Assembly (NCBI RefSeq): GCF_035621135.1 | Contig: NZ_CP141728.1 | Coordinates: 1,426,001 to 1,490,000, forward strand | DNA: 64,000 nucleotides | Direction: 5' to 3' | Source: Sinanaerobacter sp. ZZT-01 | GTDB lineage: Bacteria; Bacillota; Clostridia; Peptostreptococcales; Anaerovoracaceae | Part shown: one piece after another, positions 4,341-22,266 of the stretch | How the letters are laid out: each line of letters begins with the position of its first letter | How positions within the stretch are numbered: the first letter of the stretch is position 1 | Translations under genes and position numbers: made by a program | Notes under the pieces: generated by a model | Databases searched by the model: none | What the model saw: the letters and a program-made list of their open reading frames with translations, nothing else | What the model was told of the DNA's origin: nothing

Positions 4341-4355
4341 TGGCATCGATCTTGC
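4341..4355 (+). promoter_or_regulatory. Sigma-54 (-24/-12) promoter for symporter, DD-carboxypeptidase and malY
   Basis: TGGCAT, five bases, TTGC, matching the consensus TGGCAY-N5-TTGC, with GG and GC at the required 10-bp spacing. It is located in non-coding DNA upstream of 4595 and oriented toward it. Confidence 0.82.
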
Positions 4356-4594
4356 TCTTATAATAAACATTGTGAAAAGTATGAGAAAATAATTAACTCA
4401 TAGGATTACAAATCCTGTCTCATGAAAAAGGAGGGATGAAAAAAGATTAAAATGAATGATTTATTTTTTATGGCCGTTGTATTGTCTTAGATTGGGATTG
4501 CGAAATCCAGATTGGATTTCCGCAGGAGTTTATGAAACTTAATCGGAATAATAGACTCTTGGAGGAATAGTATTGATAAAGGGGAGGACTTGTT

Positions 4595-5857
4595 ATGATG
4601 ACCTTAAAAAAGCAAACTTTTTGGAAAAATTATCGATTTCCACTTATATTACTTTCAGGTATTATCATTGGAAGCATAATCGGCCTTATTATGGGGGAAA
4701 AAGCCGTTGTGCTGAAGCCTTTTGGGCAGGTGTTTATTAATTTAATGTTTACTGCCGTTGTCCCTTTAGTTTTTATTACAATAAGCAGTGCGGTTGGAAG
4801 CATGCTGAATATGAAGCGATTGGGAAAGATTTTAGGAAATATGCTCCTAGTATTTTGTGTCACTGGTATCATTGCATCCATTATTATCATTACGGTTGTA
4901 AGCATTTTTCCACCAGCAGCTGGAGCTAATATTGCATTGGAAGCAGCCGAAGAGTTAGAGACGATCGATCTTGGAGAACAGATTGTAAAGGCAATTACTG
5001 TACCGGATTTCGTAGGTCTCTTATCAAAGGCGAATATGCTGCCGTTGATTGTCTTTTCTATTCTGTTTGGATATTGTGTCAGTACGACAGGAGGAGAAGA
5101 AAATAAGGTCGCAAAAGGATTAGACGCTTTATCGAAAATTTTTATGAAACTGATCGGTATCATCATGCTTTATGCTCCTATTGGACTGGGTGCTTATTTT
5201 GCAGCCTTAATCGGCGAATTCGGACCACAGCTTTTAGGTGCTTATATGAAAGCGATGTTGATCTACTATCCGGTTTGTTTTCTTTACTTTATTGTTGCGT
5301 TTGCTGGCTATTCTTATTTCGCAGGAGGAAAAGAAGGAACAACAGCTTGTTTTAGAAACATTATGCCACCGGCTGTTACAGCTTTTGCAACAGGAAGCTC
5401 GATTGCGACACTACCAGTTAACTTAAAAGCTGCACAAAAAATAGGTGTGCCAAAAGATATTCGTGAAATTATATTACCGATTGGCGCGACCATGCATATG
5501 GACGGAACCTGCCTGTCTTCTATCTTGAAGATTTCGTTTTTATTTGGTGTCTTTGGGCAAGAATTTGCAGGCATTGGAACATTTGCAACAGCAATTATCA
5601 TATCAGTTCTCGGTGGAGTTGTCATGTCAGGGGTACCGGGAGGCGGTTTGATTGGAGAAATGCTGATTGTAAATCTTTACGGATTTCCGCCAGAAGCATT
5701 TCCTATTATCGCAACCATTGGTTTTTTAGTCGACCCGCCGGCTACTATGGTAAATGCGTCCGGGGATACGGTTTCTTCGATGATGGTGACAAGACTTGTG
5801 GAAGGAAAAGAGTGGATGAAAAAAAATAGGGAAACGGAAATAGATGAAGTAGCATAG
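4595..5857 (+). CDS. Dicarboxylate/amino acid:cation symporter (DAACS/SLC1 family)
   Basis: 420-aa membrane protein of the GltP/GltPh fold. It shows the HP1 serine-rich loop (FATGSSIATLP), GATMHMDGT of TM7, GVPGGG of HP2, and the TM8 motif DPPATMVNASGD. In GltPh the TM8 motif reads D-M-G-R-T-M-V-N, where the Arg (R397) binds the substrate side-chain carboxylate. Here that Arg is Ala (codon 5741-5743), while the Thr, Asn and Asp of the motif are kept. Loss of the Arg is a mark of carriers for neutral substrates, so a neutral amino acid such as alanine or serine is more likely than glutamate or a C4-dicarboxylate. RBS GGGGAGG lies upstream of ATG 4595. It is first gene of a sigma-54 unit with the genes at 5916 and 7277. 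Confidence 0.88.
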   Translation: MMTLKKQTFWKNYRFPLILLSGIIIGSIIGLIMGEKAVVLKPFGQVFINLMFTAVVPLVFITISSAVGSMLNMKRLGKILGNMLLVFCVTGIIASIIIITVVSIFPPAAGANIALEAAEELETIDLGEQIVKAITVPDFVGLLSKANMLPLIVFSILFGYCVSTTGGEENKVAKGLDALSKIFMKLIGIIMLYAPIGLGAYFAALIGEFGPQLLGAYMKAMLIYYPVCFLYFIVAFAGYSYFAGGKEGTTACFRNIMPPAVTAFATGSSIATLPVNLKAAQKIGVPKDIREIILPIGATMHMDGTCLSSILKISFLFGVFGQEFAGIGTFATAIIISVLGGVVMSGVPGGGLIGEMLIVNLYGFPPEAFPIIATIGFLVDPPATMVNASGDTVSSMMVTRLVEGKEWMKKNRETEIDEVA

Positions 5858-5915
5858 GAATTGCCCAATGAAATAGGAATACAAAATATTGAAACTTATA
5901 ATAATGGAGGATACT

Positions 5916-7253
5916 ATGAATAGAAAAATAATACGCACTACATTATCTTTGATGCTGATTTTGACTTTATTTTGTGGAATGACGACGTTTGCTTTTGCTG
6001 GAAGTTCCTATACAGCAGTGCCTAAAAATGTGGCAGTAGTTATGGATGACAAGACTGAAAACTTTGCAGGATATAACGTAGGGGGGCAGAATTACTTTAG
6101 GCTGAGAGACTTTGCGGAGTTGCTAAATGGAAGTGAAAAACAGTTTAATATTACATATGATAATCAATATAAAGCAATTCAGCTATGGAAAGGAAAGGCG
6201 TATACAGCAAATGGAGAGCAAAAACAGGTAAAAAACCTTATTAACAAAGAGGCACGGTCGATTTCTTCGAAACTTTTACTAGATAACAAACGCATTAAGT
6301 TTACTGCATACAGTATTGAAGGAGAAAGCTATTTCAGATTCTGTGATATCATGCAAATTTTTGACGTATATGCCGCCTATGACTATAGCGCAGAAGCGAT
6401 TCTGATCGACCCGAAAAAAGATTATACCGTACAATTCCAAAATACAGTAGAGAGCGGATATTTTGATTTTTTACACGGGGCACTGCTTGGAAATTCTGAC
6501 ACAGGAGAAATTCTCTATTCAAATAATTCAGATCAAAAAGTATCAATCGCAAGTACATCAAAACTTATGACCTATCTGCTGATTCGAGAAGCGGTAAAAG
6601 AAAAGAAAATTTCTTGGGATGATGAAGTCGTTCTCTCCAAAACAGCTGAAGCCTATTCTCTGTCGGAAGATGGAGTTGTCCCTATGAAAGCGGGACAGAA
6701 AGTTAAATTACAGGATTTGGTAGAAGCTATGCTGATCGTTTCAAGTAACGAATCAGCTACGGCGCTTGCAGAACATTTATATGGATCAGAGGAAAAATTT
6801 ACGCAGCGTATGAACCAGAGAGCGAGCGAATTAGGGCTGCTGAGTGCAGAATTTTATAATCCACATGGCCTTCCTATTTATACCCCGGATGTCCTTTCAT
6901 CAAAGAAGCAGAATCGAATGAGTGCAAAGGACTTATTTGAGTTGAGCCGATACATCATCAACCATTATCCGGAAGTCCTTGCTATTACTGAAAAAGTACA
7001 GCTGTCTGAAGGAAGTTTAAATTTCACAGATGAAAATACCAACCGCTTATTATTCCAAATGGATGGTGTAGACGGATTGAAAACAGGAACGACAAATCGG
7101 GCGGGATGCTGCTTGATTGCGACAATGCCAGTAAAAAATGGTGCTGCAGAAACGAGAATCATTGCCATTGTTTTAGGTGCAGAGGACAGCACAGAACGTG
7201 CGGAAAAAACAGGCGTATTATTACAGTACGGTGAGGAGTATTATAGCCAATAG
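5916..7253 (+). CDS. Secreted D-alanyl-D-alanine carboxypeptidase (peptidase S11) with N-terminal stalk-like domain
   Basis: Penicillin-binding DD-carboxypeptidase that removes the terminal D-Ala from peptidoglycan pentapeptides outside the membrane. The signal peptide is at residues 1-28 (core LMLILTLFCGMTTFAFA). Residues about 30-170 resemble two copies of the copper-amine-oxidase N-terminal 'stalk' fold (NYFRLRDFAELL and SYFRFCDIMQIF). The S11 catalytic domain has Ser213-x-x-Lys216 (STSK), SSNES for the SxN motif and DGLKTGTTNRAG for KTG. ATG 5916 has GGAGG at 5906-5910; the TTG 27 bases upstream has no RBS. The preceding gene ends 58 bases before and malY starts 23 bases after, so this is probably one transcript. 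D-Ala release suits the surrounding D-amino-acid genes. Confidence 0.9.
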   Translation: MNRKIIRTTLSLMLILTLFCGMTTFAFAGSSYTAVPKNVAVVMDDKTENFAGYNVGGQNYFRLRDFAELLNGSEKQFNITYDNQYKAIQLWKGKAYTANGEQKQVKNLINKEARSISSKLLLDNKRIKFTAYSIEGESYFRFCDIMQIFDVYAAYDYSAEAILIDPKKDYTVQFQNTVESGYFDFLHGALLGNSDTGEILYSNNSDQKVSIASTSKLMTYLLIREAVKEKKISWDDEVVLSKTAEAYSLSEDGVVPMKAGQKVKLQDLVEAMLIVSSNESATALAEHLYGSEEKFTQRMNQRASELGLLSAEFYNPHGLPIYTPDVLSSKKQNRMSAKDLFELSRYIINHYPEVLAITEKVQLSEGSLNFTDENTNRLLFQMDGVDGLKTGTTNRAGCCLIATMPVKNGAAETRIIAIVLGAEDSTERAEKTGVLLQYGEEYYSQ

Positions 7254-7276: not shown

Positions 7277-8458
7277 ATGAAATATAACTTTGATAAAATA
7301 ATTGATCGCAGCGAGCAGCATGCAGCAAAATATGATGAACGCTTCAAAAAATTCGGGCGGGATGATATCATCCCGCTTTGGATTGCCGATATGGATTTTG
7401 AAACAGCACAGCCTATCATAGATGCAGTAAAAAAGCGAGCGAATCAAGGAATTTATGGATATACTTCCCGCCCAAGTTCCTATTACGAATCCATATGTCA
7501 ATGGCAGAGGCGACATCACAATTGGGAGATTGATCCAAATCAAATTAGTTTTGCACCAGGGATTGTTCCGGCGCTATCAGAACTGGTACATGAATTTACG
7601 GAACCGGGAGATGCTGTGCTTATACAGACACCGGTATATCCTGAGTTTTATGATGTCATTGAGGCTTGGAAAGACCGTAAGGTCATAGAAAACCAGCTTA
7701 TCGAAGAAAATGGATCTTACACGATGGATTTTTCAGACTTGGAAGAAAAGTTGAAACGGAAGCCGAAGCTATTTCTATTTTGCAGTCCGCATAATCCGGT
7801 CGGACGGGTATGGAAGAAGGAAGAACTGGAGCGCATGACGGGGTTGTGTATTCGCCATGAGGTACCGATTGTGTCAGATGAAATTCATTCTGACCTTTTG
7901 CTTTGGGGAAGCGAGCATATTCCGACGGCAACGATCTCAAAGGAGGTAGCGGGGCAAACTATCAGCTGTATTTCTTCCACTAAAAGCTTTAACTTGGCTG
8001 GATTACAGGCAGCATCCATTATTTTTCCAAACAAAGAGTGGAAAAATCGTTTTGATTCTTTTTGGGGTGGCTTAGATATTCACAGAAATAATTGTTTTAG
8101 TTTAGTTGCGATAGAAGCAGCGTGTCGTCATGGTGACGAATGGCTGCAACAGCTGCTTGTGTATGTAGAGGAAAACATGTTGTTTGTAAGAGAATTTTTA
8201 CATACAGAAATCCCGGAAATAAAGGTAAGTCTGCCGGAAGCGACCTATTTGCTTTGGCTGGATTGCAGAGAACTGATGGATTATAAAAATTTATGGAGCT
8301 TTATGATTCACGAAGCAAAAATTGGATTAAATAATGGAGCTGATTTTTGCCGCAGTCTCGATGGCTATCTGCGCATGAATGTCGCTTGCCCGCGTGTTGT
8401 TTTGAAGCGTGCGTTAGAGCAGCTTAGAGAAGCAGTTCAACAATTACATATGCGGTAA
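7277..8458 (+). CDS. MalY/PatB-type pyridoxal-phosphate C-S lyase or aminotransferase
   Basis: Fold-type I PLP enzyme of 393 aa. It opens with the MalY-family start (YNFDKIIDRSEQHAAKYD, DDIIPLWIADMDF), has the PLP-binding lysine in SSTKSFNLAGLQAA, SPHNPVGRVW in the cofactor pocket and the C-terminal arginine region GYLRMNVACPR. Relatives include cystathionine or cysteine beta-lyases (E. coli MalY, B. subtilis PatB) and some aminotransferases or racemases; sequence alone does not decide. It would release ammonia and pyruvate or keto acids from amino acids in the cytoplasm. RBS GGAG at 7265; 23 bases after the DD-carboxypeptidase gene. Confidence 0.85.
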   Translation: MKYNFDKIIDRSEQHAAKYDERFKKFGRDDIIPLWIADMDFETAQPIIDAVKKRANQGIYGYTSRPSSYYESICQWQRRHHNWEIDPNQISFAPGIVPALSELVHEFTEPGDAVLIQTPVYPEFYDVIEAWKDRKVIENQLIEENGSYTMDFSDLEEKLKRKPKLFLFCSPHNPVGRVWKKEELERMTGLCIRHEVPIVSDEIHSDLLLWGSEHIPTATISKEVAGQTISCISSTKSFNLAGLQAASIIFPNKEWKNRFDSFWGGLDIHRNNCFSLVAIEAACRHGDEWLQQLLVYVEENMLFVREFLHTEIPEIKVSLPEATYLLWLDCRELMDYKNLWSFMIHEAKIGLNNGADFCRSLDGYLRMNVACPRVVLKRALEQLREAVQQLHMR

Positions 8459-8541: not shown

Positions 8542-10386
8542 ATGATTGGAAACTCTCAATTGCTCCAGCTCATTACCGATCACTTGGAAGACGGTATCAT
8601 ATTTGTAGACAAAGAGCATAAAATACGTCTTTTTAACCAAAAAGCAAAGGGAATCACGGGGATTATTTTTGATAAATATGCATCCCACGAAGCGGGTAAA
8701 ATTGAAAGCGGAGATATCGTTATTCTTGCAGATAATGCAATCGGAAAGGATGACGGTGATTTATCACCGAAGGACTTATCGCTGCTTAACATTTTGGATT
8801 CGGATATTCGAGCAAATGATTGTATCCTTGGCATTGGTGTTTATGGAAACCCTGAAATTCAGCCTGTTTATAAATATCTTCGCGGTGCGAATTTAAATGA
8901 GGACTTTGTATTAGAAGCAAATTATTTGGGCTTTCAGATTCAGGTGCTGATCGAACCGATTAAGAAAAAGATGCACATTCGAGTAAACGGAGATTCCTAC
9001 AGTGTTTCTTTCTTAGATTCGTTCGGCCATATGGTGATTATCGATGGAAAAAGCGGAAGTATAAAATTTTTTCAGGCGAAAGGTTATACCATAAGAAAAG
9101 AGTCCATTAAAGAAATTTTACATGATCGTGAATTTCTTTCAAAAGGAAGCAAAAGAGAGGACCTTAACGTCATTGGAACGAAGATTGATGACCTTTTTGA
9201 AAAAGGGAAATTGCTTCAAAGCATAGGAACCGTTTTGTCTGGAAAAGAACATCTTATTCCCAATGATTTTTTTGAAATTAATAAACGTTTAGTATTGTGT
9301 TCAATCAGGGCGATTCAGGATGAGCAAGGGATACAAGGCGTTCTTCTTAATATACAGGATGTATCCGAGCTGGAAAAGCTTTTGGATGACCGCAATCAAA
9401 TTTTAATGGAGGTTGAAAAAAGTTATACGAACCGTCCGTCAATGTATGGAGACCTTTCAAAAGATCTCTTTCCTCGTTTTGTCGGTAACAGTCATTTGAT
9501 GGTGCAGCTGAAATATTTAGCGCATAAGGCATCTAAAACAAAATTTAATGTAATCATTACGGGTGAAAGCGGAACCGGAAAATCTTTATTGGCCCGTTTG
9601 ATTCACGAAGAAAATAATAAATCCTCTCCGTTTATAGAAGTGAACTGTAATGCCATTGCACCGACTCTTTTTGAAAGTGAGCTGTTCGGTTATGTAGGAG
9701 GTGCTTTTACCGGAGCACTGTCTTCCGGACGTTCCGGATACTTTGAGAATGCGAATGGAGGTACCATCTTCTTGGATGAAATCGGAGACCTTCCTCTTGA
9801 AATTCAAGTGAAACTTTTATATGTTCTGCAAAATAAGATCATTTATCGAGTAGGTTCTGCAAAGCCGATTCCGATTGATGTCAGAGTCATTGCAGCAACA
9901 AATAAAAATCTTGAGGAGGAAGTAGTAAAGGGAACGTTTCGTCAAGACCTTTACTATCGAATCAATGTATTTCCGATTGTGATTCCGCCTTTGCGTGAGC
10001 ATAAGTCAGACCTTTATATGCTGATTAATAAGATTTTAAATAAAATTTGTGTGCGTTATGATTTATCTCCAAAGCAATTGTCGGGAGAAGCGCTTGATAA
10101 GCTACTCAGGTATAGCTGGCCCGGAAATGTCCGAGAGCTGGAAAATATCATTGAGCGGGCTATTACGCTGTGTGAAACCAATTGGATTTACCCGGAACAC
10201 ATCAATATTAAGGGTTCTTATACGATTGGAACTTCTATGCGTGAACAGATGCAGGAAGCAGAGAAAAAAATATTAAAAGAAGCACTGGTTCGGGCGAACG
10301 GAAATAAGATTCAAGCAATGCAGGATTTAGATATGTCAAAATCCGTTTTTTATGAAAAATTGAAAAAATACTTCATATCAATTTAA
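8542..10386 (+). CDS. PAS-domain sigma-54-dependent transcriptional activator
   Basis: 614-aa bacterial enhancer-binding protein. Two PAS-like sensory segments (about residues 5-60 and 225-285) are separated by a region I do not recognise. The AAA+ domain has Walker A GESGTGKS (from residue 341), the sigma-54 contact loop GAFTGA at 387-392, Walker B with LDE near residue 412 and the sensor/R-finger region DLYYRINVFPI. A Fis-type helix-turn-helix sits at the C-terminus (GNKIQAMQDLDMSKSVFYEK). With no receiver domain, it probably responds to a small ligand. It lies between two of the five -24/-12 promoters in this window and is the only such activator seen, so it is the obvious candidate controller. 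A terminator follows. Confidence 0.93.
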   Translation: MIGNSQLLQLITDHLEDGIIFVDKEHKIRLFNQKAKGITGIIFDKYASHEAGKIESGDIVILADNAIGKDDGDLSPKDLSLLNILDSDIRANDCILGIGVYGNPEIQPVYKYLRGANLNEDFVLEANYLGFQIQVLIEPIKKKMHIRVNGDSYSVSFLDSFGHMVIIDGKSGSIKFFQAKGYTIRKESIKEILHDREFLSKGSKREDLNVIGTKIDDLFEKGKLLQSIGTVLSGKEHLIPNDFFEINKRLVLCSIRAIQDEQGIQGVLLNIQDVSELEKLLDDRNQILMEVEKSYTNRPSMYGDLSKDLFPRFVGNSHLMVQLKYLAHKASKTKFNVIITGESGTGKSLLARLIHEENNKSSPFIEVNCNAIAPTLFESELFGYVGGAFTGALSSGRSGYFENANGGTIFLDEIGDLPLEIQVKLLYVLQNKIIYRVGSAKPIPIDVRVIAATNKNLEEEVVKGTFRQDLYYRINVFPIVIPPLREHKSDLYMLINKILNKICVRYDLSPKQLSGEALDKLLRYSWPGNVRELENIIERAITLCETNWIYPEHINIKGSYTIGTSMREQMQEAEKKILKEALVRANGNKIQAMQDLDMSKSVFYEKLKKYFISI

Positions 10387-10446: not shown

Positions 10447-10545
10447 TTTTCCGAAAAAAAGAACTGGTAGTCCGGATTTTCGTATAAAACATAGAAAATA
10501 ATATGAAAATATGGCAAAAGTGAATCATAAAAGCAACAAAACAGA

Positions 10546-10774: not shown

Positions 10775-12064
10775 ATGAATAAAGATGTAAAAGCAGGCGT
10801 ATTACATTTTGACGGATGCAATACGGTAGATTTGGCTGAAAAATATGGAACGCCGCTCTATGTGTACTCGGAAAATGGCCTTTTAGAAAAGATGAATGAA
10901 TTAAAAGATGATTTTTTGAAGCCATATCCCAACACACGTGTGGCTTATGCATGCAAGGCTTTTTGCACGAAGGCGCTGTTACAGATTTTGAAGAGAGAAG
11001 GGATGTGTATTGACGTTGTATCCGGAGGGGAACTCTATACAGCGATGGCAGTAGGATATCCGGCGGAAAAGATTGAATTTAACGGAAATAATAAATTACG
11101 CAGTGAAATTGAAATGGCAGTTGACTATGGAATCGGAAGAATCATTATCGACGGACTTCATGAATTGGCATTAATTGATGAAGTGTGCAAAGAAAAGCAG
11201 AAAAAGATGAAGGTGCTGTATCGAATCACACCGGGTGTAAAAAGTGATTCACATGACTATATTGTAACTGGAAAAAAAGACTCTAAATTTGGGATCCCAT
11301 TGGATGATGAGGTGATCTATCCGGCGATTCAGGAAGCAATACAATGTGAATCTGTTGATTTCCTGGGATTTCACTTTCATGTAGGATCTCAAATTTTAGA
11401 TAATCAGTCTCATTTAGCGGCACTCGAGACATTGCTAAACCTTGTAAAGGGAACAAAAGAAAAATTTGGATACGAAATAAGTGAGCTGAACATTGGCGGC
11501 GGCTATGCGATTTGTTACACAGATCAAAACCCAGAAAGGTATGCATATTATCTTGATCCAATGATGAAACGGATTGAGGAATTTTCTAAAGCAAACGGAA
11601 TGAATCGACCGGCGGTCGTTATTGAACCGGGTAGAAGTGTTGTCGGAGAAGCCGGCATCATGCTTTATACCATTGGAGAAATTAAAGACATAAAAGGTAT
11701 CCGGAAATATGTATCTGTAGACGGAGGTATGACTGATAATATTCGCCCTGCGCTCTATCAGGCGGAATATGATGGCGTAATTGCGAATAAGGCAGAAGAA
11801 ACCAAAGATGACTTAGTCACAATTTGTGGGAAATGCTGTGAGTCAGGAGATATTTTGATTCGAGATATTAAAATGCCTGTAGCGAAAAAAGGTGATATTC
11901 TGGCGGTCTTTTCTACCGGTGCATATGGTTATTCCATGGCTTCCAATTATAATAAAAATCCAATACCAGCTGTTGTCTTAGTAAAAGATGGGAAGAGTCA
12001 GTTGATTGTAAAAAGACAGTCTTATGAAGATATGATACAAAATGAATTGTCTTTGGAAGATTAA
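10775..12064 (+). CDS. lysA: Diaminopimelate decarboxylase
   Basis: Fold-type III PLP decarboxylase converting meso-diaminopimelate to L-lysine and CO2. Visible motifs: PLP lysine K61 in VAYACKAF, the histidine-containing FHFHVGSQI, the glycine loop LNIGGGYAI, IEPGRSVVGEAG, the CESGD motif with the catalytic Cys (GKCCESGDIL), and GAYGYSMASNYN. Length 429 aa is typical. Ornithine/arginine-decarboxylase relatives share the fold, but CESGD and the MASNYN end favour LysA. No other lysine-biosynthesis gene except a DapF-like gene is in the window. The sigma-54 promoter and the neighbouring serine hydrolase and carrier suggest a catabolic or recycling role. RBS GGGG upstream of ATG 10775. Confidence 0.92.
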   Translation: MNKDVKAGVLHFDGCNTVDLAEKYGTPLYVYSENGLLEKMNELKDDFLKPYPNTRVAYACKAFCTKALLQILKREGMCIDVVSGGELYTAMAVGYPAEKIEFNGNNKLRSEIEMAVDYGIGRIIIDGLHELALIDEVCKEKQKKMKVLYRITPGVKSDSHDYIVTGKKDSKFGIPLDDEVIYPAIQEAIQCESVDFLGFHFHVGSQILDNQSHLAALETLLNLVKGTKEKFGYEISELNIGGGYAICYTDQNPERYAYYLDPMMKRIEEFSKANGMNRPAVVIEPGRSVVGEAGIMLYTIGEIKDIKGIRKYVSVDGGMTDNIRPALYQAEYDGVIANKAEETKDDLVTICGKCCESGDILIRDIKMPVAKKGDILAVFSTGAYGYSMASNYNKNPIPAVVLVKDGKSQLIVKRQSYEDMIQNELSLED

Positions 12065-13014: not shown

Positions 13015-14556
13015 ATGGAAAGTATCAGTGTTGGCTGGCTGTCAATTTTGCCGCCAGTTGTTGCGATTATTTTGGCCTTGCTTACAAAAGAAGTGATATC
13101 TTCACTTTTGGTAGGTATTCTAATTGGTGCAGCGACGTATTCTTATACCGTCGGAACTGGATTTGTCGGGATTTTTACGACAACATTTACTCTTATGGGA
13201 GACTCATTAGCAGGAAACATTACAAATGTTATTTTCTTAAGTTTACTTGGTGCCCTGGTCGTGCAGGTTACGGTGGCAGGAGGTGCACAAGCTTACGGTG
13301 TATGGGCTGCGACCAAGATAAAGTCAAGGGTGATGTCGCAGCTTGCAACAGCCTTACTGGGCGTTATTATTTTTATTGATGACTATTTTAACTGTCTTGC
13401 TGTAGGGACAATTATGAAACCGATCACCGATAAATATCAAGTATCCAGAGTAAAATTAGCCTACTTTATAGATTCTACAGCAGCGCCAATCTGTATTATC
13501 GCCCCGGTGTCAAGCTGGGTTGCTGCAGTAGGGTCCAGCTTGGGTGCATCTGGTGTATTTGATAGTGATATGGCTGCATTTTTAGCAACAATTCCTTTTA
13601 ATTTGTATGCACTCCTTACCATTGCAATGGTAATTGTTCTTGCGACAACAAATGTAGGATTTGGACCTATGCGGAAATTTGAAAGGCTGGCAGAGGAAGG
13701 GAATTTGGCTTCCACAGAAAATGACGCAGAGATGGGTGTAAAAATTTGTGAAAAAGGAAAGGTTATGGACCTTGTAATCCCAATCTTGAGTTTAATAATA
13801 TTTTCTGTCTTGGGGATGCTTTATACAGGAGGGCTCTTTACTGGTGAGAGTAGTTCTGTTCAGGAAGCGTTCGGAAATTGTAATTCCTCTCTTTCTTTAG
13901 TTTTAGGAAGCTTTGCAGCTTTAGTTGTTGCGTTCGTTATGTATCTACCAAGAAAGCTGATGACCTTTAATGAGTTTTTTGAAGGTGTGACTCAGGGGGC
14001 GAAAAATATGGTTATGCCGAATATTATCTTGACGTTGGCATGGACCATCGGAGCCGTATGTCGCCAGCTGCTTTCTACGGGCCAATTCGTAGGACATATG
14101 GTAGAAGTAAGCCATTTTCCGCTGGCCTTCCTTCCAATTTTAATTTTCGTTGTCTCTTCGGCGTTGGCTTTTGCGACTGGAACTGCATGGGGAACGTTCG
14201 GAATTCTCATTCCAATTGTTATTATTGTTTTAGAACCTTCTATGGCGACGCAACCGAATTTAATGACTGTATCCCTTGCCGCAGTTCTCGGCGGATCTAT
14301 ATTTGGGGATCACTGTTCGCCGATTTCCGATACTACAATTATGTCCTCAACAGGAGCTGCTTGTGTGCATTTGGATCATGTATCGACACAGATTCCATAT
14401 GCACTGACAACAGCAAGTTGCTGCATCATCGGATATATTGCAGCGGCACTATCAAACTACAGTGTTGTTGTGACTCTGCTAGCGGGATTTGGTTCTCTTT
14501 TCCTAGAACTGTTTCTTTTTAACAAATATTTTGGTAATGGAAAAGTAAAAGCTTAA
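13015..14556 (+). CDS. NhaC-family transporter (Na+/H+ antiporter or amino acid carrier)
   Basis: 513-aa polytopic membrane protein of the NhaC family, with about a dozen hydrophobic segments. Characteristic stretches are IFIDDYFNCLAVG, SWVAAVGSSLG, GTAWGTFGILIPI and GSIFGDHCSPISDTT. The family includes Na+/H+ antiporters, the malate/lactate exchanger MleN and the predicted lysine carrier LysW found with lysine-regulated genes. Directly downstream of lysA, a role in moving lysine, DAP or a related amine is an attractive inference but is not shown by the sequence. RBS AAAGGAGG; last gene before the terminator at 14619. Confidence 0.85.
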   Translation: MESISVGWLSILPPVVAIILALLTKEVISSLLVGILIGAATYSYTVGTGFVGIFTTTFTLMGDSLAGNITNVIFLSLLGALVVQVTVAGGAQAYGVWAATKIKSRVMSQLATALLGVIIFIDDYFNCLAVGTIMKPITDKYQVSRVKLAYFIDSTAAPICIIAPVSSWVAAVGSSLGASGVFDSDMAAFLATIPFNLYALLTIAMVIVLATTNVGFGPMRKFERLAEEGNLASTENDAEMGVKICEKGKVMDLVIPILSLIIFSVLGMLYTGGLFTGESSSVQEAFGNCNSSLSLVLGSFAALVVAFVMYLPRKLMTFNEFFEGVTQGAKNMVMPNIILTLAWTIGAVCRQLLSTGQFVGHMVEVSHFPLAFLPILIFVVSSALAFATGTAWGTFGILIPIVIIVLEPSMATQPNLMTVSLAAVLGGSIFGDHCSPISDTTIMSSTGAACVHLDHVSTQIPYALTTASCCIIGYIAAALSNYSVVVTLLAGFGSLFLELFLFNKYFGNGKVKA

Positions 14557-14666: not shown

Positions 14667-15767
14667 TTATTTAGAAAGGTAAATACGCGGCGGACGGTTT
14701 GCGATTCGGGATACAATTTCATTTTTGTTTGTTCCTGCCAGCTTTGCTGCCTCCTCAATGTCCATAGCGGAATCAGCTCCGTCGCCGTAGATGATTGCAG
14801 AATCACCTTCCTTAGCATTGGGAACATCAGTTAAATCAACCATGCATTGATCCATGCAGATTACCCCGATAATCGGGCAGCGGACACTGTGAATCAGCAC
14901 ATAACCTTTTCCTCTTAAATTTCTAGGATAGCCATCTGCATATCCAAATGGAAGTGTAGCGATCCTGGTATCCTTTTCCGCCTTCCATAAATAATCATAG
15001 CCAACGCCATCTCCTTTTTTTATCTCATGAATTTGAGAAATTCGTGTAAGAAACGTAAGTGCTTGTTGCAATGGAAGAAAACCAGTGTGAAAGCCTTTCA
15101 GACCATAAATCAAAGCACCGGGACGGATCATATTCATATGATACTTTGGAAAATCGACCGCAGAAATACTGTCAGCGATATGTTTGTAGCGGAAGGAAGC
15201 CCCGCCCTTTTCCAGTTCATCAATCACAGCAAGAAAACGGTTATATTGCAGATCATTTTCCTGCTTGTTGACAAGGGCAAGGTGAGAGAAAATGCCTTCA
15301 ATTGTTATTGAATCAAGCTGGCAGATTTTATTCAGTTCATGAACGTTTGACATACCTAAGCGGTGAAATCCAGTATCTACCTTTAGATGAACCTTTGGTT
15401 TTTTGTGAGCTTGTTTTGCCAAGTCATTGAGAAGAGAAGCTTGCTTAAAAGAGACAATTGTCTGTGTAATGTTCTTTTCAATGATATATGGCAGCAGATG
15501 GTCAGGAGTGTGACCTAAAATAAATATCGGATAATCGTGATACGCTTCGCGAAGCTCCAAGGCCTCTGTTAATGTAGCGACGGCCAGATAAGCGGCATTC
15601 TCTTTTATCAGAGCCGGAGCAATTCCAATTGCCCCATGACCATATCCGTTTGCCTTGATCACGGCCATTATCGAAACTTCTTTTCCAATCAGCGTATGAA
15701 TCTCCCTCATGTTTTCTCTGATTGCATCCAAATCGACTTGTACGACGGTATCTCTGAGCAATTCCAC
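14667..15767 (-). CDS. alr: Alanine racemase
   Basis: PLP enzyme interconverting L- and D-alanine. The PLP lysine is K38 in MAVIKANGYGHG. The second catalytic residue, Tyr, lies in GVGYDYLWKA, and the family block NMIRPGALIYGL is present, with the C-terminal metal- or substrate-contact region GVICMDQCMVDLTD. Length 366 aa is standard. The start is GTG at 15767, preceded by AGGAGG. The upstream M20 gene ends three bases before it, so the two are translationally linked and share the minus-strand sigma-54 promoter at 17086-17100. That linkage points to use in alanine catabolism (as for DadX) rather than only in wall synthesis; whether a second alr exists cannot be seen here. Confidence 0.93.
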   Translation of the reverse strand: MELLRDTVVQVDLDAIRENMREIHTLIGKEVSIMAVIKANGYGHGAIGIAPALIKENAAYLAVATLTEALELREAYHDYPIFILGHTPDHLLPYIIEKNITQTIVSFKQASLLNDLAKQAHKKPKVHLKVDTGFHRLGMSNVHELNKICQLDSITIEGIFSHLALVNKQENDLQYNRFLAVIDELEKGGASFRYKHIADSISAVDFPKYHMNMIRPGALIYGLKGFHTGFLPLQQALTFLTRISQIHEIKKGDGVGYDYLWKAEKDTRIATLPFGYADGYPRNLRGKGYVLIHSVRCPIIGVICMDQCMVDLTDVPNAKEGDSAIIYGDGADSAMDIEEAAKLAGTNKNEIVSRIANRPPRIYLSK

Positions 15768-15770: not shown

Positions 15771-16997
15771 TTATTTCCTCCTATCGGTAGCACTTGGCTT
15801 TTTTTCATAATTCAGTAATGCAAATGCAGCGGCTACTTCCATGAGCATACCGGAGCGGATACAAGAATCATCCGGATCATACCATTCACTGTGAAGAGCC
15901 TGTGGTTTTTCGCTGCTCTCCCTCTTAGTTCCCAGATTAAAATAAATTCCTTTAGAAGCATTTGCAAAATAAGAAAAATCCTCAGCGCCCATGCTGGGCT
16001 CGGAAAGGAGGAATAGCTGCTCTTGATTGAAGTGTTGCAGAGCAGCAGATTCCAATATGCTTCCAAGCAGATCATTGTTAATCAATGCCGGGTAGCTGTC
16101 ATGAAAATCCACTGATGCGGTTGCTCCAAAAGCTTGCGCAGTACTTACAGCAATTTGCTCTAACTGTTGTTTCATATAGACTTGTGTTGCTTTATCAAAT
16201 GTACGGATGATACCTTTTAAGTCAGCGTATGGTGGAAGAATGTTATTTTTTGTACCTGCATGGAACTGCCCTATGCTTAAGACGCCCGAATTGGTCGGTG
16301 ATAGGTTGCGGCTGACAATACTCTGCAATGCTGTTACAATGTGGGAAGCTGCTAAGATTGCATCGACACCATCATCTGGATGTGCTCCATGACTTGAAAC
16401 ACCTTCAACACGAATAGAAAATTCTGTTGACGCAGCGTTCATTCTGCCTCGGCAAAACTCGATTGCGCCACTTGGAATGGATGGAGCAACATGCAGTCCG
16501 ATCACCGCTTCTATTTTGGGATTTTCCATACATCCTGCTGCGATCATCCGCTCTGCTCCCCCGATGGTTTCTTCTGCCGGTTGAAAAAAGAATTTTACTG
16601 TACCATGAAATTCGGAGCGCAGGCTCTGCAAAATACGAGCAGTTCCTAACAGAGTAGCCATATGGATATCATGGCCGCAGGCATGCATAACCCCTTCTGC
16701 TACAGAGCGGTGAGGTATTTCCACCTTTTCGCAGATCGGAAGCGCATCCATGTCAGCACGAATTGCAATCGCAGGGAATGCCTGCTTTATGGAAGCTTCT
16801 TTTGTACCGGTCACGGATGCTACAATACCATAACCTGCGACGCCTATTTGATGTGGTATATTCCAGCTGTGGAGATAAGTGCTGATTTTTTCTGCCGTTT
16901 GTTTTTCTTGTTCTGAAAGCTCGGGGTGCTTGTGAAAGTCTCTCCGAATTGTAATGATTTCCTCCAAAATGGCATCAATTTGATTTTCTATGTTCAT
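15771..16997 (-). CDS. M20-family amidohydrolase (amino acid deacylase/carboxypeptidase type)
   Basis: 408-aa cytoplasmic metal-dependent amidohydrolase of the IAA-amino-acid/hippurate hydrolase and N-acetyl-diaminopimelate deacetylase group. Metal ligands are visible in MHACGHDIHMA, FFQPAEETIGGAERM, GLHVAPSIPSG and MGAEDFSYF, and the dimerisation lid lies near residues 180-290. It releases amino acids from N-acyl amino acids or short peptides. Exact substrate is not predictable from sequence; with alr, lysA and dapF-like genes nearby, N-acetyl-DAP or a wall-derived acyl amino acid is plausible. ATG 16997 has GGAGG five bases upstream. First gene of the minus-strand sigma-54 unit. Confidence 0.85.
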   Translation of the reverse strand: MNIENQIDAILEEIITIRRDFHKHPELSEQEKQTAEKISTYLHSWNIPHQIGVAGYGIVASVTGTKEASIKQAFPAIAIRADMDALPICEKVEIPHRSVAEGVMHACGHDIHMATLLGTARILQSLRSEFHGTVKFFFQPAEETIGGAERMIAAGCMENPKIEAVIGLHVAPSIPSGAIEFCRGRMNAASTEFSIRVEGVSSHGAHPDDGVDAILAASHIVTALQSIVSRNLSPTNSGVLSIGQFHAGTKNNILPPYADLKGIIRTFDKATQVYMKQQLEQIAVSTAQAFGATASVDFHDSYPALINNDLLGSILESAALQHFNQEQLFLLSEPSMGAEDFSYFANASKGIYFNLGTKRESSEKPQALHSEWYDPDDSCIRSGMLMEVAAAFALLNYEKKPSATDRRK

Positions 16998-17083: not shown

Positions 17084-17085
17084 AA

Positions 17086-17100
17086 GCAAACTTTATGCCA
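17086..17100 (-). promoter_or_regulatory. Sigma-54 (-24/-12) promoter for the amidohydrolase and alanine racemase
   Basis: On the minus strand TGGCAT (17100-17095), five bases, TTGC (17089-17086). It points toward the amidohydrolase start at 16997 and is back to back with the plus-strand element at 17122. Confidence 0.8.
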
Positions 17101-17223: not shown

Positions 17224-18180
17224 ATGGAGAATACGATGAGAATGATTGATCTGCATTGCGATACGTTATTGAATTGCTATCGTGATGGCCAGTGTGAACT
17301 GCTTGATAATCCAGGGCACATCAGCCTGAGAAAGATGAAAGAAGGGGGGGCGCTTGCACAATTCTTTGCAATCTACATATCCCGTAATGAGATGAAAACC
17401 ATGGATCCCTATGAAATCTTTCAAGAGGTTTACAAAGTTTACCAGATAGAATTGGAAAAAAATAAGGATCTTATTTTACCGGCTTACTGTGCAGCGGATA
17501 TACAAAAAAACATAGAATTAAATAAAATGTCTGCACTTCTTTCCATTGAAGACGGGGTTGTGCTCAGCGATCAAATGGAACGAGTAGAAGAGTTCTACCA
17601 GAAAGGTGTGCGCCTTTTAACGCTCACATGGAACTTTGAAAATACAATCGGGTTTCCTTGCAGTAAGGATGAAAAAGCACATCAAATGGGGTTAAAACCC
17701 TTTGGTATTCATGTGGTAGAAGAGATGAACCGCTTGGGAATGCTGATTGATGTATCCCATCTGTCTGAAGGTGGTTTTTATGATGTAGCAAAGTATTCCA
17801 AGAAACCGTTTGTTGCTTCACATTCCTGTGCACGTGCTTTATGCAATCATCAGAGAAATTTAACGGATGAACAATTAAAAACTTTGGGAGAGAAAGGCGG
17901 CGTAGTCGGTGTAAATTTCTGTGCTTCCTTCTTAAAGGAAGGTGCCAGCCGTTCTATGATTGACGACATCGTTGCACATACGGTATATATGGCGGATAAA
18001 GCCGGTGTGGAAAGCATTGGATTCGGCTCTGATTTTGACGGCATTGATGATGAGCTTGAAATGAAGGATTATTCTGGATATTTAATGCTGTTAAATGCTT
18101 TAAGCAAGCATTTTAAAGCAGTGGAACTAGATAAAATCTGCAATGGCAACGCTATGCGTATCATAAAAGACTGCTTATAG
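17224..18180 (+). CDS. Membrane dipeptidase (peptidase M19, renal dipeptidase family)
   Basis: 318-aa zinc dipeptidase. The binuclear metal site is visible as DLHCDT (residues about 9-14), LSIEDGV (bridging Glu), IDVSH and VASHSCAR, with the closing GFGSDFDGI. M19 enzymes hydrolyse dipeptides and, unusually, accept a D-residue at the C-terminal position, including L-Ala-D-type dipeptides from cell walls. There is no signal peptide, so it acts in the cytoplasm despite the family name. AAAGGAG precedes ATG 17224. It has its own -24/-12 promoter and its own terminator, so it is a single-gene unit. Confidence 0.92.
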   Translation: MENTMRMIDLHCDTLLNCYRDGQCELLDNPGHISLRKMKEGGALAQFFAIYISRNEMKTMDPYEIFQEVYKVYQIELEKNKDLILPAYCAADIQKNIELNKMSALLSIEDGVVLSDQMERVEEFYQKGVRLLTLTWNFENTIGFPCSKDEKAHQMGLKPFGIHVVEEMNRLGMLIDVSHLSEGGFYDVAKYSKKPFVASHSCARALCNHQRNLTDEQLKTLGEKGGVVGVNFCASFLKEGASRSMIDDIVAHTVYMADKAGVESIGFGSDFDGIDDELEMKDYSGYLMLLNALSKHFKAVELDKICNGNAMRIIKDCL

Positions 18181-18277: not shown

Positions 18278-18868
18278 CTAATTATTTTTTAAAATAGCAA
18301 CGGCTAAAGCCACGGATTGCGTGAGAGAGGCGAGAACAAAAAGTGCAAGACAGGAATAGACGATTGAAGTAATCTTTCTTGAAATCCCATGCCCCGGTAG
18401 TATGGTAAACTGTTTTTCAATGGAAAGGTTTTTTGCTTTTAAGAGTTTATAAAATCCGTCAACACCAACTGGCGAAATTAAACCAAGACGAAAAAACGGA
18501 AGAAAGAAGAGCGCAGATTCGCCGTCCTTCTCATAAAGCGTGATGCCCCGTTTGCCCAAAACTGCCTTTGAAATACGTTGAAAATCAATTTCTTTTGTTT
18601 TTCTTAAGATGCGATTATAATAGATAATTTCGTTATCATTATAAGTTGTGTAGAAAAATTTATATCCGAAGAAAAAGAAAAGACAAATTACCAAATAAAA
18701 GAGATAGAGAAGTAAAGAAGCGCCGACATTATAAGTAGAGGTATAATCATTAATATCAAAAAAAATAACTTCAAGAAATATGGTAAAGCGTGCTGCAATA
18801 AGCAGCATGAGGAGGATTAGAAAAACTTGTTTTGACATGGAAGGATAATAGTATTGAATTTTTTCCAT
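18278..18868 (-). CDS. Hypothetical membrane protein
   Basis: 196 aa, not recognised. Predicted membrane segments are at about residues 14-33, 47-70 and 170-192. The intervening 100 residues are hydrophilic with alternating beta-type sequence (NEIIYYNRILRKTKEIDFQR, then GKRGITLYEKDGESALFF), resembling membrane proteins with a bacterial PH-like domain; this is only a shape argument. ATG 18868 has AGGGG upstream. It stands alone between two sigma-54 units and shares neither promoter. Confidence 0.6.
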   Translation of the reverse strand: MEKIQYYYPSMSKQVFLILLMLLIAARFTIFLEVIFFDINDYTSTYNVGASLLLYLFYLVICLFFFFGYKFFYTTYNDNEIIYYNRILRKTKEIDFQRISKAVLGKRGITLYEKDGESALFFLPFFRLGLISPVGVDGFYKLLKAKNLSIEKQFTILPGHGISRKITSIVYSCLALFVLASLTQSVALAVAILKNN

Positions 18869-18950
18869 TTTTGGTCCCCTTTCTTTTAACTTTATCCTAT
18901 TTTACATATCCGACTTAAAAAAGTAAAGCTGAAAAGAGATTTTTATAAAT

Positions 18951-18968
18951 ATTCCTAAAATTAGGAAT
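18951..18968. promoter_or_regulatory. Inverted repeat upstream of the spmAB-like sigma-54 promoter
   Basis: ATTCCTAA, two bases, TTAGGAAT: a perfect 8-bp inverted repeat about 125 bp upstream of the -24 element at 19093, in the usual enhancer range. The half-site TAGGAAT also occurs at 17048 and 17173 around the divergent promoters. Confidence 0.4.
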
Positions 18969-19092
18969 AGGGGTTCGAAATTCAATACAAAAACAAAGGA
19001 AAAGAAGCAAGATTTTTAGCAGATCTATTTAAAAATCGAAAAAAAAGTAGAAAAAAGAAAGGATGATATGGTAAAAAATTAAAATGGTAATT

Positions 19093-19849: not shown

Positions 19850-20383
19850 ATGACAGAGGTTTTAAATGTAATTTCTACATATGCAATACCGTTAATACTT
19901 TTAGTGATACCTGTGTATGCATTGGCGAAAGGCGTAAAAGTTTATTCCGTATTTACAGAAGGCGCAAAAGAAGGATTAAAAGTTTCCGTAATGATTATCC
20001 CGTATCTGGTATGTATGCTTTGTGCAATCGGTATGTTCCGTGCTTCGGGAGCTATGGATTGGTTGGTAGATATTATTAATCCGGTTACAAACTTGATCGG
20101 TCTGCCTGGAGAAGTTCTGCCGATGGGCATCATGCGTTCTTTCTCCGGCGGCGGTGCAGAAGGTATGATGAGTGATCTTCTTACAACATATGGAACACAA
20201 AGCCAGATCGGAAGAATTGCTTCCGTAGCTCTGGGTTCTACAGAAACCACGTTTTACGTTGTTGCAGTATATTTCGGATGCGTCGGTATTACCAATGTAA
20301 GACACTCCATTATTTCCGGATTGTTAGGAGACTTGGCATCTTTAATTGCTGCTACCGTTATCGTAAATGTTATGTGGTTTTAA
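19850..20383 (+). CDS. SpmB-like nucleoside-recognition (Gate) domain membrane protein
   Basis: 177-aa partner of the preceding gene, 26 bases downstream with AGGAGG. It has the SpmB signatures MRSFSGGGAEGMMSDLL, QIGRIASVALGSTETTFYV and AVYFGCVGITNVRHS, and four to five hydrophobic segments. It probably forms a complex with the SpmA-like protein in the cytoplasmic membrane. The biochemical function of this family is unknown; see the preceding entry for the alternative roles suggested by context. Confidence 0.87.
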   Translation: MTEVLNVISTYAIPLILLVIPVYALAKGVKVYSVFTEGAKEGLKVSVMIIPYLVCMLCAIGMFRASGAMDWLVDIINPVTNLIGLPGEVLPMGIMRSFSGGGAEGMMSDLLTTYGTQSQIGRIASVALGSTETTFYVVAVYFGCVGITNVRHSIISGLLGDLASLIAATVIVNVMWF

Positions 20384-20460
20384 AAGACGCACAATTGTAA
20401 TATAATAAAAAAGTGATCTATAATTTTGCTAATAAAGAACAGGTAAAGAAGAGGATGGGA

Positions 20461-21384
20461 ATGAAGTATCCAAAAAAATTAGAACCGGGAGCAACGCTTG
20501 GGTTGGTTTGCCCGAGCTCCCGCATTTCAGAAGAAAGAGAACGGGAGTGCAAGAACGTTTTGGAAGCGCTTGGCTACCGTGTAAAACTGGCCGATAATTT
20601 AACGGTTGATTATGCCGGATATATGGCCGGAGATGGAGATGTTCGGGGAAAATGGATCAATGCCATGTTTTCAGATCCTGAAGTGGATGCGATTTTCTGC
20701 GTCAGAGGAGGAGACGGCGGAAGCCGGGTTATGGACTATGTAGACTTTGACTTAATTCGGGCCAATCCCAAGATTTTTGTCGGCTACAGTGATGTTACAA
20801 GTCTGCACAATGCAATTACAAAAGAGTGTGGATTCGTGACGTTTCATGGACCGATGGTTTCTTCCAACATGGTAGCGAATTTTGATGAAGAGACAAAAGA
20901 AAGCTTCTTTAAAGCGCTGAATGCAGATGCTTCGTATACGTTTCAGAATCCGAAAGGATATGAAATCGGAGTATTAAAAGAAGGAAAAGCATGCGGTGAA
21001 CTAATTGGAGGAAACCTATCCCTCCTTTCTGCCTCTATAGGTACCTTTTATGAAATGGATACAAAGGGGAAAATTTTATTTATTGAAGAGGTACAGGAGC
21101 CTATGAGTCGAATTGAAAAGCTAACGTACCATCTTCGAAATTCCGGGAAATTAAAGGATTGTGCAGGAATTCTTTTGGGACAGTTTACAGACTGTTTAAA
21201 TAAAGAAGACCCTTCTTATACGGAGTTAGAACTTTACAAAGATGCATTAAAAAATTTAGATATTCCTGTTATATACAACATTCAATCTGGGCATGGATAT
21301 CCGATGATGACTTTACCGATGGGCGGTGTTTGTACATTGGATACGCAAAATAAAAAAATCGAATTTGCAGCTCCAGAGAGGTAA
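20461..21384 (+). CDS. LD-carboxypeptidase (peptidase S66, LdcA/MccF family)
   Basis: 307-aa serine peptidase that cleaves the L,D bond between diaminopimelate and the terminal D-Ala of tetrapeptides, a cytoplasmic peptidoglycan-recycling step; MccF relatives cleave microcin adenylates. The catalytic Ser110 is in FVGYSDVTSL, the Glu in FIEEV and the His in SGHGYPMMTLPMG, all in expected order. Start chosen at ATG 20461 (MKYPKKLEPGATLGL) with AGAGG upstream; in-frame ATG 20455 and GTG 20413 lack good ribosome sites. Third gene of the sigma-54 unit. Confidence 0.88.
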   Translation: MKYPKKLEPGATLGLVCPSSRISEERERECKNVLEALGYRVKLADNLTVDYAGYMAGDGDVRGKWINAMFSDPEVDAIFCVRGGDGGSRVMDYVDFDLIRANPKIFVGYSDVTSLHNAITKECGFVTFHGPMVSSNMVANFDEETKESFFKALNADASYTFQNPKGYEIGVLKEGKACGELIGGNLSLLSASIGTFYEMDTKGKILFIEEVQEPMSRIEKLTYHLRNSGKLKDCAGILLGQFTDCLNKEDPSYTELELYKDALKNLDIPVIYNIQSGHGYPMMTLPMGGVCTLDTQNKKIEFAAPER

Positions 21385-21426
21385 CAAGAGCAAAGATTAT
21401 AAAAATGCAGAAGGAGGCCTTTAGGT

Positions 21427-22266
21427 ATGCAATTTACAAAAATGCAGGGTGCAGGAAATGATTTTATTGTTATGAATAACATAGAATTAAAGCTTCCGCT
21501 GGAAAAGTTTCCGCAAATGGCTAGACGCCTCTGCCAGAGAGGCTTGTCCATTGGAGGAAATGCACTTATGGTCGTGGATCAGCCAACGGCAGGCGGCGAT
21601 TTCAAAATGCGTTTTTATAATGCAGACGGAAGTGTTGCTGAAATGTGTGGAAACGGTGCACGTTGTATTGCACGGTATGCTTATGAAAGTAAACTTGCCG
21701 GTGAAAGCATGAAAATTGAAACCGAAGCGGGCGATGTATTTGCATGGAGGAAAAGCAAACGGTTTTATAAAATAAAGCTGAATACCCCCGAAGTGGTTCG
21801 GCTGGACTATCCGGTTGAAGTAGATGGGAAACGTTATGAATGTTCTTATGTAGAGCTGGGAAATCCCGGATTGCCCCATGCAGTTGTTCGATTGGATGCA
21901 TTTCAAGAAATGCCGCATGAAGAACTGTTTCAATTGGGAAGCCAGCTTCGTTGGCACAGTGCGTTTCCAAAGGGAGCTAACGTAAATTTTTATAAAATCG
22001 TTTCGGAAGACCATATTTTAGAAAAGACTTTTGAAAGAGGTGTCGAGGACTTTACTTTGGCTTGCGGTACCGGTTCAGGCTCTGTCGTTTCTGTTTTGGC
22101 ATTACAAGGTAAGGTAAGCGGTAAAAACATAAAGCTGACCGTACCCGGCGGAGAATTGTTTGTGGATGCTCTGATTGAAAATGGATGTGTCGAGTCGCTG
22201 TATTTAACAGGAGATACAAATATCGTAGCGGCTGGTGAAATCCTTGACGAAGACCTTCTTCTATAA
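21427..22266 (+). CDS. dapF: DapF-fold epimerase: diaminopimelate epimerase or related amino acid racemase
   Basis: 279-aa cofactor-independent racemase. Both catalytic cysteines are present, C74 in AEMCGNGARC and C213 in LACGTGSGS. Diaminopimelate epimerase interconverts LL- and meso-DAP. Two departures from canonical DapF as I know it: the substrate-loop motif usually GNPHxV reads GNPGLPHAVV (residues 145-153), and the usual ERGxGET before the second Cys reads ERGVEDFT. DapF relatives that racemise other amino acids exist, so DAP specificity is not certain. It lies downstream of LD-carboxypeptidase with AGAAGGAGG before ATG. The 3' end touches that of the convergent VanZ/DacA gene, with no terminator visible. 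Confidence 0.8.
   Translation: MQFTKMQGAGNDFIVMNNIELKLPLEKFPQMARRLCQRGLSIGGNALMVVDQPTAGGDFKMRFYNADGSVAEMCGNGARCIARYAYESKLAGESMKIETEAGDVFAWRKSKRFYKIKLNTPEVVRLDYPVEVDGKRYECSYVELGNPGLPHAVVRLDAFQEMPHEELFQLGSQLRWHSAFPKGANVNFYKIVSEDHILEKTFERGVEDFTLACGTGSGSVVSVLALQGKVSGKNIKLTVPGGELFVDALIENGCVESLYLTGDTNIVAAGEILDEDLLL

Follow-up and report, generated by a model that had tools for sequence, protein, structure and literature searches.

Genes and promoters of the locus

We analysed a 64,000-bp stretch of the genome of Sinanaerobacter sp. ZZT-01 (Anaerovoracaceae; contig NZ_CP141728.1, positions 1,426,001 to 1,490,000), hereafter called the window, in which five sigma-54 promoters, designated P1 to P5, and the gene for a sigma-54 activator lie among genes for peptidases, amino acid racemases and carriers. 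Judging from comparison with related genomes, we consider it probable that this locus is a sigma-54 regulon for the uptake and dismantling of peptidoglycan stem peptides. Coordinates below are those of the window, and features lie on the forward strand unless stated otherwise.

P1 (4341..4355) is followed by genes for an SDF-family symporter (4595..5857), which adjoins LysA/DapF in three relatives (loci L085, L094 and L109), a secreted S11 DD-carboxypeptidase with a signal-peptide-like N-terminus (5889..7253), and a PatB/MalY-type C-S lyase (7277..8458; TIGR04350, 466 bits, cut-off 340). The activator gene (8542..10386) comes next, and then P2 (10589..10603), which precedes the diaminopimelate decarboxylase LysA (10775..12064; TIGR01048, 450.9 bits, cut-off 297.9), a Beta-lactamase2-family serine hydrolase (12135..12965) and an NhaC-family carrier (13015..14556). 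Alanine racemase (Alr; 14667..15767; TIGR00492, 332 bits, cut-off 168) and an M20 amidohydrolase (15771..16997; TIGR01891, 341 bits, cut-off 154) are on the reverse strand, behind P3 (17086..17100, reverse strand), the left half of a back-to-back pair whose right half, P4 (17122..17136), faces an M19 dipeptidase (17224..18180). The reverse strand then encodes a conserved membrane protein (18278..18868) that recurs in relatives and whose function is unknown. The last promoter, P5 (19093..19107), is followed by two adjacent short membrane proteins with the Gate domain (PF07670; 19155..20383), an S66 LD-carboxypeptidase of the YkfA/LdcA/MccF family (20413..21384) and the diaminopimelate epimerase DapF (21427..22266; TIGR00652, 207 bits, cut-off 114.65). 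The Gate pair is presumably SpmA-like and SpmB-like, Gate being a family wider than SpmAB. The gene identities proposed by a sequence-only reading of the window hold by Pfam and NCBIfam profiles, with two amendments: its DapF-like racemase is DapF proper, with both Cys-Gly motifs aligning with those of the solved DapF 1bwz, and its serine hydrolase is a Beta-lactamase2 protein in which no signal-peptide-like start is seen. The cysteines of DapF have a catalytic role.

In a simple hydropathy scan, S11 is the sole enzyme of the locus with a signal-peptide-like start, and as the others look cytoplasmic, their substrates would have to be imported. Candidates for import are the SDF symporter, which may carry a wall-derived amino acid, the NhaC carrier, the SpmA-like/SpmB-like pair as a two-part importer, and ABC transporter genes in relatives.

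Sigma-54 sites in the window and in the genome

The five sites that the sequence-only reading had proposed, at 4341, 10589, 17122 and 19093 on the forward strand and at 17086 on the reverse, were all recovered as exact matches to TGGCAY-N5-TTGC. Each is aimed at a gene start, at a distance of 47-239 bp, and -24/-12 elements with GG and GC at fixed spacing precede the target genes. In total, the window contains six exact matches against 0.33 expected (standard deviation 0.59; largest of 100 shuffles, 2). The sixth (53611-53625, forward strand) is internal to the MurJ reading frame (53049-54569), and was set aside as a probable chance match rather than a functional promoter. Allowing one mismatch yielded 15 matches against 9.0, a number reached by three shuffles, and since this excess is weak, only the exact set is informative.

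The whole genome (3.37 Mb) has 34 exact matches, compared with 10 for the reversed pattern. It has 22 activator-family matches, 20 of them scoring above 200 bits and the last two being weak AAA+ matches, and for 27 of the 34 exact sites one of these 20 sigma-54 activator genes is no more than 12 kb away. The activator at 8542-10386 has five exact sites nearby, while any other activator has at most two, and the presence of five of the 34 sites inside one 16-kb stretch was matched in only about 0.1% of 2000 random placements. The five window sites exceed chance and are real.

A predicted palindromic activator site

Expectation-maximisation on 36 upstream stretches, the window's five included, yielded one palindromic motif with the consensus tnnTCCtnAWWTnaGGAnna (log-likelihood 161, compared with a maximum of 48.3 in eight shuffled sets), which we regard as the predicted upstream activator site (UAS). 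In the window, scores of at least 15 are confined to the regions upstream of P1, P2 and P5 (20 shuffles gave a mean of 0.4 such scores and a maximum of 2). The predicted site TTTTCCGAAAAACCGGAAAA (4186..4205, score 21.2) is found 155 bp upstream of P1, and an identical 20-base site precedes lysA-dapF-SDF in the genome of the same genus (L085). Two predicted sites 21 bp apart (10447..10487) precede P2, the one at 10447 being weak (10.9) and the one at 10468 scoring 15.8. The predicted site TATTCCTAAAATTAGGAATA (18950..18969, score 22.2) precedes P5 by 143 bp, with P3/P4 1.8 kb away. We fetched the loci of 30 of the genome's 34 sigma-54 sites, and none of the 24 outside the window contains a motif scoring 14 or more (best 13.9).

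In relatives, 18 of the 19 sigma-54 sites facing LysA, DapF, Gate, S66 or Beta-lactamase2 genes have a motif scoring at least 10 within 260 bp, and the nineteenth (L087) has two copies about 630-650 bp upstream. Fourteen motif pairs (score at least 9) in 22 loci are spaced by exactly 21 bp, or about two helical turns, a spacing absent from 10 shuffles. Two loci left out of motif building also carry the motif: L108, with scores of 17.4 and 16.5 for two copies spaced by 21 bp, some 650 bp before the SpmA-like promoter, and L109, with a score of 17.0, 48 bp upstream of a sigma-54 site. A few occurrences stand apart. In L085, a strong activator-type site (5314-5333, score 19.7) separates the activator gene from spoIIR, and no exact sigma-54 site adjoins it; L102 (794-4196) encodes a DcuC carrier, an M15 dipeptidase and LysA, the last read in two separate frames, and an activator-type site lies upstream of them at 569; and L092 (3487-12589) has two SpmAB-S66 units in one genome, with activator sites preceding the sigma-54 site of just one of them.

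The activator protein

The activator had been described from the sequence as PAS-type, and its AAA+ (PF00158) and Fis-type helix-turn-helix (PF02954) domains were indeed found, while the PAS assignment comes from weak Pfam matches below the cut-off (residues 9-38 and 204-276) and from a structural model. The protein scores 369.3 bits with the PrdR NCBIfam equivalog model, for which the cut-off is 795. A model of the N-terminal residues 1-301, built with three sequences (mean predicted local distance difference test score, pLDDT, of 67.2), had no match in Foldseek with an E value of 0.001 or lower; VIA-align 2 aligned it with PAS domains (best Z 11.2, root-mean-square deviation 3.3 over 103 residues), the alignment ends falling at model positions 4 and 274. 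We read the modelled N-terminus as one PAS domain split by a beta-rich insertion of about 130-150 residues, which carries many of the invariant residues of the activator family. The split PAS may sense a compound of the pathway, such as diaminopimelate (DAP) or a D-amino acid. The model of the full-length protein, with a mean pLDDT of 48.6, was of too low confidence to be used.

Activator loci in related genomes

We searched 197 genomes of the same family with the activator, and 38 of them, its own included, had a best match at 1e-100 or better; in four (G184, G106, G069 and G128) the match was limited to a part of the protein. We read 20 stretches surrounding full-length activator relatives (44-58% identity) for eight core families: LysA, DapF, S66, SpmA-like, SpmB-like, M19, M20 and Alr. 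At least one is present in 18 stretches, at least two in 16 and at least three in 12. LysA and DapF are each found in 14, S66 in 12, SpmB-like in 11, SpmA-like in 10, Alr in 8, M19 in 7 and M20 in 6, and SDF, S11, PatB, Beta-lactamase2 and the unknown membrane protein recur likewise. A second type of LysA, 39-41% identical to that of the window, occupies the same neighbourhood in six loci (L092, L093, L097, L100, L101 and L102).

The 20 loci contain 31 exact sigma-54 sites, compared with 0-2 in 10 shuffles. Nineteen of these face LysA, DapF, the Gate A and B genes, S66 or Beta-lactamase2 and six face M19 or M15; the remaining six are directed at genes for an Opp permease, gamma-glutamyltranspeptidase or the activator itself, or have no clear target. 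The M15 D-Ala-D-Ala dipeptidase was found by similarity in seven of the 20 stretches and in L108, two cases being confirmed by Pfam, and an M55 D-aminopeptidase is encoded near the activator in L108 and L089; we take the latter to belong to the family of DppA, a protein presumably controlled by CodY. Importers recur as well: L098 encodes an ATPase together with an Opp-type permease pair, accompanied by two activator sites and by a sigma-54 site that overlaps the called start of the first permease frame, as well as gamma-glutamyltranspeptidase at another sigma-54 site that has no activator site, and L092 has an ABC importer with an amino-acid-type binding protein. Among 80 loci listed in a scan of named genomes, mostly with matches to AAA+ only, two were near full length, in Emergencia sp. 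1XD21-10 (L108) and in an Anaerovorax odorimutans metagenome-assembled genome (L109), both Anaerovoracaceae. That a regulon of sigma-54 and this activator joins most of these genes is well supported by sequence comparison.

The back-to-back promoter pair

P3 and P4 diverge, with 21 bp between their -24 ends. With the first base relaxed to T or C and the fourth to C or T, a search for similar arrangements found back-to-back pairs in seven of 23 sequences, with gaps of 21 bp in the window, 13 in L083, 25 in L087, 40 in L089, 1 in L091, 2 in L097 and 25 in L108. All seven lie between M19 and M20 or M15. No pair arose in 20 shuffles of the whole set, and the remaining sigma-54 loci fetched from this genome contain none. 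With only 1-2 bp between them, two polymerases would overlap, and the two promoters may be mutually exclusive. A second palindrome beside these pairs, with a score of 61 compared with at most 32 in shuffles, was dropped, as its matches mostly reflect conserved coding sequence at the M19 start (Asp-Met-His-Cys-Asp).

DapF, LysA and the supply of diaminopimelate

In this genome, LysA and DapF are each the sole copy over the cut-off; the other TIGR01048 match falls below it and the other PF01678 match is a PhzF-type protein. The idea that the locus holds catabolic paralogues beside separate biosynthetic DapF and LysA was thereby rejected for this genome. There are two dapB copies and no match to the meso-DAP dehydrogenase Ddh, which means that DapF and LysA must also serve any de novo route to meso-DAP and lysine.

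In the set of 197 genomes, dapB is matched in 129 and lysA in 144. Seventeen of the 38 activator genomes lack a dapB match, and all 17, which belong to eight genera and of which 15 are listed as at least 90% complete, keep lysA. In genomes with dapB, lysA is present in 21 of 21 with the activator versus 86 of 108 without it, and at 1e-50 it is matched in all 38 activator genomes, G106 being just below the curated cut-off. Among 21 genomes tested further, DapF is kept in nine of the ten that lack dapB, and a bypass through meso-DAP dehydrogenase was discarded, Ddh being matched in just one of the 21. In four genomes without a dapB match (G072, G116, G156 and G173), LysA and/or DapF are found in apparent operons with sigma-54 and activator sites upstream, the activator sites being weak in G072. 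The retention of lysA by genomes lacking dapB favours the scavenging of foreign diaminopimelate as the common denominator of these loci.

Proposed mechanism

The sites, the activator motif and the conserved gene set are established by comparison of sequences; what the regulon does with them is proposed here. The activator would bind its palindromic site, often doubled at 21 bp and mostly 50-170 bp upstream of the -24/-12 element, and would open sigma-54 polymerase at P1 (SDF-S11-PatB), P2 (LysA-Beta-lactamase2-NhaC) and P5 (SpmAB-S66-DapF), perhaps in response to DAP, a D-amino acid or another pathway compound sensed by the split PAS. P3 and P4, serving M20-Alr and M19, may be driven by looping from the 18950 site or by another activator. 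Secreted and cytoplasmic DD- and LD-carboxypeptidases and dipeptidases would then free D-Ala, L-Ala and DAP, with D-Ala removed, as far as the families tell, by S11, S66, M15 and M55 enzymes and dipeptides cleaved by M19; Alr and DapF would interconvert stereoisomers, and LysA would convert meso-DAP to lysine. In genomes with de novo DAP synthesis, likely including this one, the same DapF and LysA would serve biosynthesis too, whereas in relatives without dapB they could act on scavenged DAP only. Two further ideas may be mentioned, a carrier shared by DAP and cystine, and action of PatB on lanthionine-like compounds.

Weighing the alternatives

On the evidence of the compared sequences, the catabolic reading is likely, and the proposal of stem-peptide breakdown made in the sequence-only reading is borne out in so far as M15, M55 and importers recur in relatives and lysA is kept without dapB. 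Several observations nevertheless weigh against it. The regulon need not be purely catabolic in this genome, where a biosynthetic role is possible. Neither a gamma-D-Glu-DAP endopeptidase of the YkfC/MpaA type nor an Ala-Glu epimerase of the YkfB type was found among the 20 window proteins or the proteins scanned in neighbouring positions in relatives, a search that did not extend to the rest of the genome. In the comparison of relatives, core families, sigma-54 sites and the shared UAS recur, while two loci (L084 and L095) have none of the eight core families and two more (L096 and L098) have one each; the contig ends near the activator in L095 and L096, and the genome of L096 (G169) has no DapF match. 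The retention of lysA by all 17 dapB-less activator genomes compares with 20 of 51 dapB-less genomes without the activator, a contrast (Fisher p 6e-6) uncorrected for phylogeny. It should also be kept in mind that absence of dapB was scored with one profile at 1e-10 in draft genomes and that the matches of some dapB genes are as weak as 1e-17 to 1e-32, and a more diverged gene could have escaped. The UAS motif, moreover, was learned from the same upstream sequences in which it is counted, L108, L109 and the 21-bp spacing being the independent checks. Finally, no activator site occurs within 600 bp of P3/P4 (best score 2.2), and at the six M19/M15-facing sites of relatives the motif stays below 9 in five and reaches 10.1 in the sixth.

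The last point bears on the sequence-only claim of one regulon for all five promoters, which is supported for P1, P2 and P5, where the UAS is found; P3/P4 may use a distant site or another activator. The locus could accordingly combine two overlapping regulons, with the activator encoded here acting at P1, P2 and P5 and a different one at P3/P4, a possibility that we rate at somewhat below an even chance. The genome offers some 20 activators to choose from, five of the other six pairs likewise have no site scoring at least 13 within 600 bp, and the L091 pair has non-coding flanks of only about 25 bp on each side (gene starts set by eye), leaving little room for a conventional upstream site. 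Yet the pair belongs to the same cluster in all seven sequences bearing it, no second shared palindrome was found, and a site scoring at least 13 does exist at 315 bp in L091 and at 1.8-3.1 kb, upstream of the SpmA-like gene, in the other six; this distance is not independent evidence, since conserved gene order alone would suffice to produce it.

A biosynthetic regulon, in which sigma-54 governs the last steps to meso-DAP, lysine and D-alanine for the cell's own wall while the hydrolases recycle its own turnover, appears unlikely to us. It would fit the single DapF and LysA genes, the two dapB copies, the lack of a Ddh match, by which any de novo meso-DAP would need DapF, and a D-Ala-D-Ala ligase encoded at 28216-29457, and sigma-54 control of peptidoglycan building blocks has been proposed (Francke 2011, PMC3162934). 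It does not account for the dapB-less activator genomes that retain lysA and, in nine of ten, DapF, or for the recurrence of D-amino-acid peptidases and importers in the locus. Still more improbable, to the point that we give it very little weight, is a sporulation or cortex module, with SpmAB and a DD-carboxypeptidase acting in spore maturation: sipL and spoIIR are indeed close by (932-4068), and the B. subtilis spmA/spmB pair lies downstream of dacB (PMC13188902), but among the 20 stretches sipL/spoIIR neighbours appear only in the same-genus L085, and the sites are those of sigma-54 and not of a sporulation sigma factor. We know of no cortex genes among LysA, DapF, Alr, M19 and M20.

Neighbouring features

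Directly after DapF, and convergent with it, a VanZ domain is fused to a VanY-D-like DD-carboxypeptidase (22267-23751, reverse strand), with no exact sigma-54 site near the gene start. About 5.5 kb before the window, a further sigma-54 activator gene has a promoter of its own and is accompanied by genes for arginase and NhaC (L190, 6990-11040). A riboswitch in the P1 or P2 leader was considered and dropped, since Rfam models, applied at gathering thresholds, matched nothing in the window, and a Padloc scan of seven window proteins from 31728-39553 gave no match.

Relation to known systems

The nearest known pathway is the use of murein peptides by Dpp-YkfABCD of B. subtilis (PMC2954226), which likewise combines a YkfA-type LD-carboxypeptidase (S66) with peptide-uptake genes in one cluster; an S66 enzyme is present here. 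The present locus differs in having sigma-54 promoters and a dedicated activator, in adding DapF, LysA, Alr, M19, M20 and the SpmAB-like proteins, and in lacking YkfB epimerase and YkfC endopeptidase among the proteins scanned. In its regulation it resembles the clostridial amino-acid regulons of Nie 2019 (PMC6615313), where, in the main text and Table 1, a local activator with a Fis-type helix-turn-helix acts on TTGGCAT-N5-TTGCT promoters of amino-acid catabolism, the UAS is mostly 100-250 bp upstream, and 39 activator groups, including PrdR, OrdR and XcyR, are distinguished, 65% of activators governing one operon. The OrdR regulon includes nhaC and that of XcyR malY; none of the 39 groups in Table 1 lists lysA, dapF, alr, LD-carboxypeptidase or spmAB, and six search words, diaminopimelate and peptidoglycan among them, are all absent from the main text. 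The UAS described here is unlike the TGT-N10-12-ACA type of 15 groups, the motifs of the other groups (in a figure and the supplement) lying outside this comparison.

Francke 2011 ties sigma-54 generally to peptidoglycan precursors including alanine and DAP/lysine, and the consulted part describes no activator, site or operon of the window's kind (PMC3162934). The dacB-spmA-spmB arrangement of B. subtilis similarly joins an SpmA/SpmB pair to a wall-peptide carboxypeptidase, while here the difference is an LD-carboxypeptidase with DapF or LysA behind a sigma-54 promoter (PMC13188902). SpmA and SpmB had no known activity as of 2012, according to the section consulted (PMC3533761), and an SpmA-like query against PDB sequences gave one chance-level match (E 0.38). 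Our literature searches turned up no report of such a sigma-54 regulon. The main text of PMC9130780 has no diaminopimelate and has "lysa" only within "Lysates", that of PMC12069270 has no lysA, dapF or diaminopimelate, and that of PMC12316311 has no peptidoglycan, diaminopimelate, lysA or carboxypeptidase. The regulon itself is new, while its type of control, by sigma-54 and an activator, is already known.

Implications

A bolder extension, which we regard as doubtful, is that sigma-54-controlled feeding on the cell walls of other bacteria is family-wide, that lineages without dapB obtain DAP and lysine in no other way and are therefore obligate wall scavengers, that the SpmAB-like pair imports a wall amino acid or peptide, and that P3/P4-type pairs are a competition switch served by one enhancer 2-3 kb away. 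If this were true, the import role would explain the unknown role of SpmAB in spores, and the facing -24 elements would set two sigma-54 polymerases to exclude each other. Apart from this extension, the compact back-to-back pair offers a model for activation without a nearby enhancer, the SpmAB-like proteins of unknown activity gain a substrate context, and the defined activator, DNA site and promoter set are directly testable. If the proposed reading is correct, the peptidoglycan of dead neighbours would be a regulated source of amino acids for these anaerobes, and the loss of DAP synthesis in some of them could be explained by scavenging.

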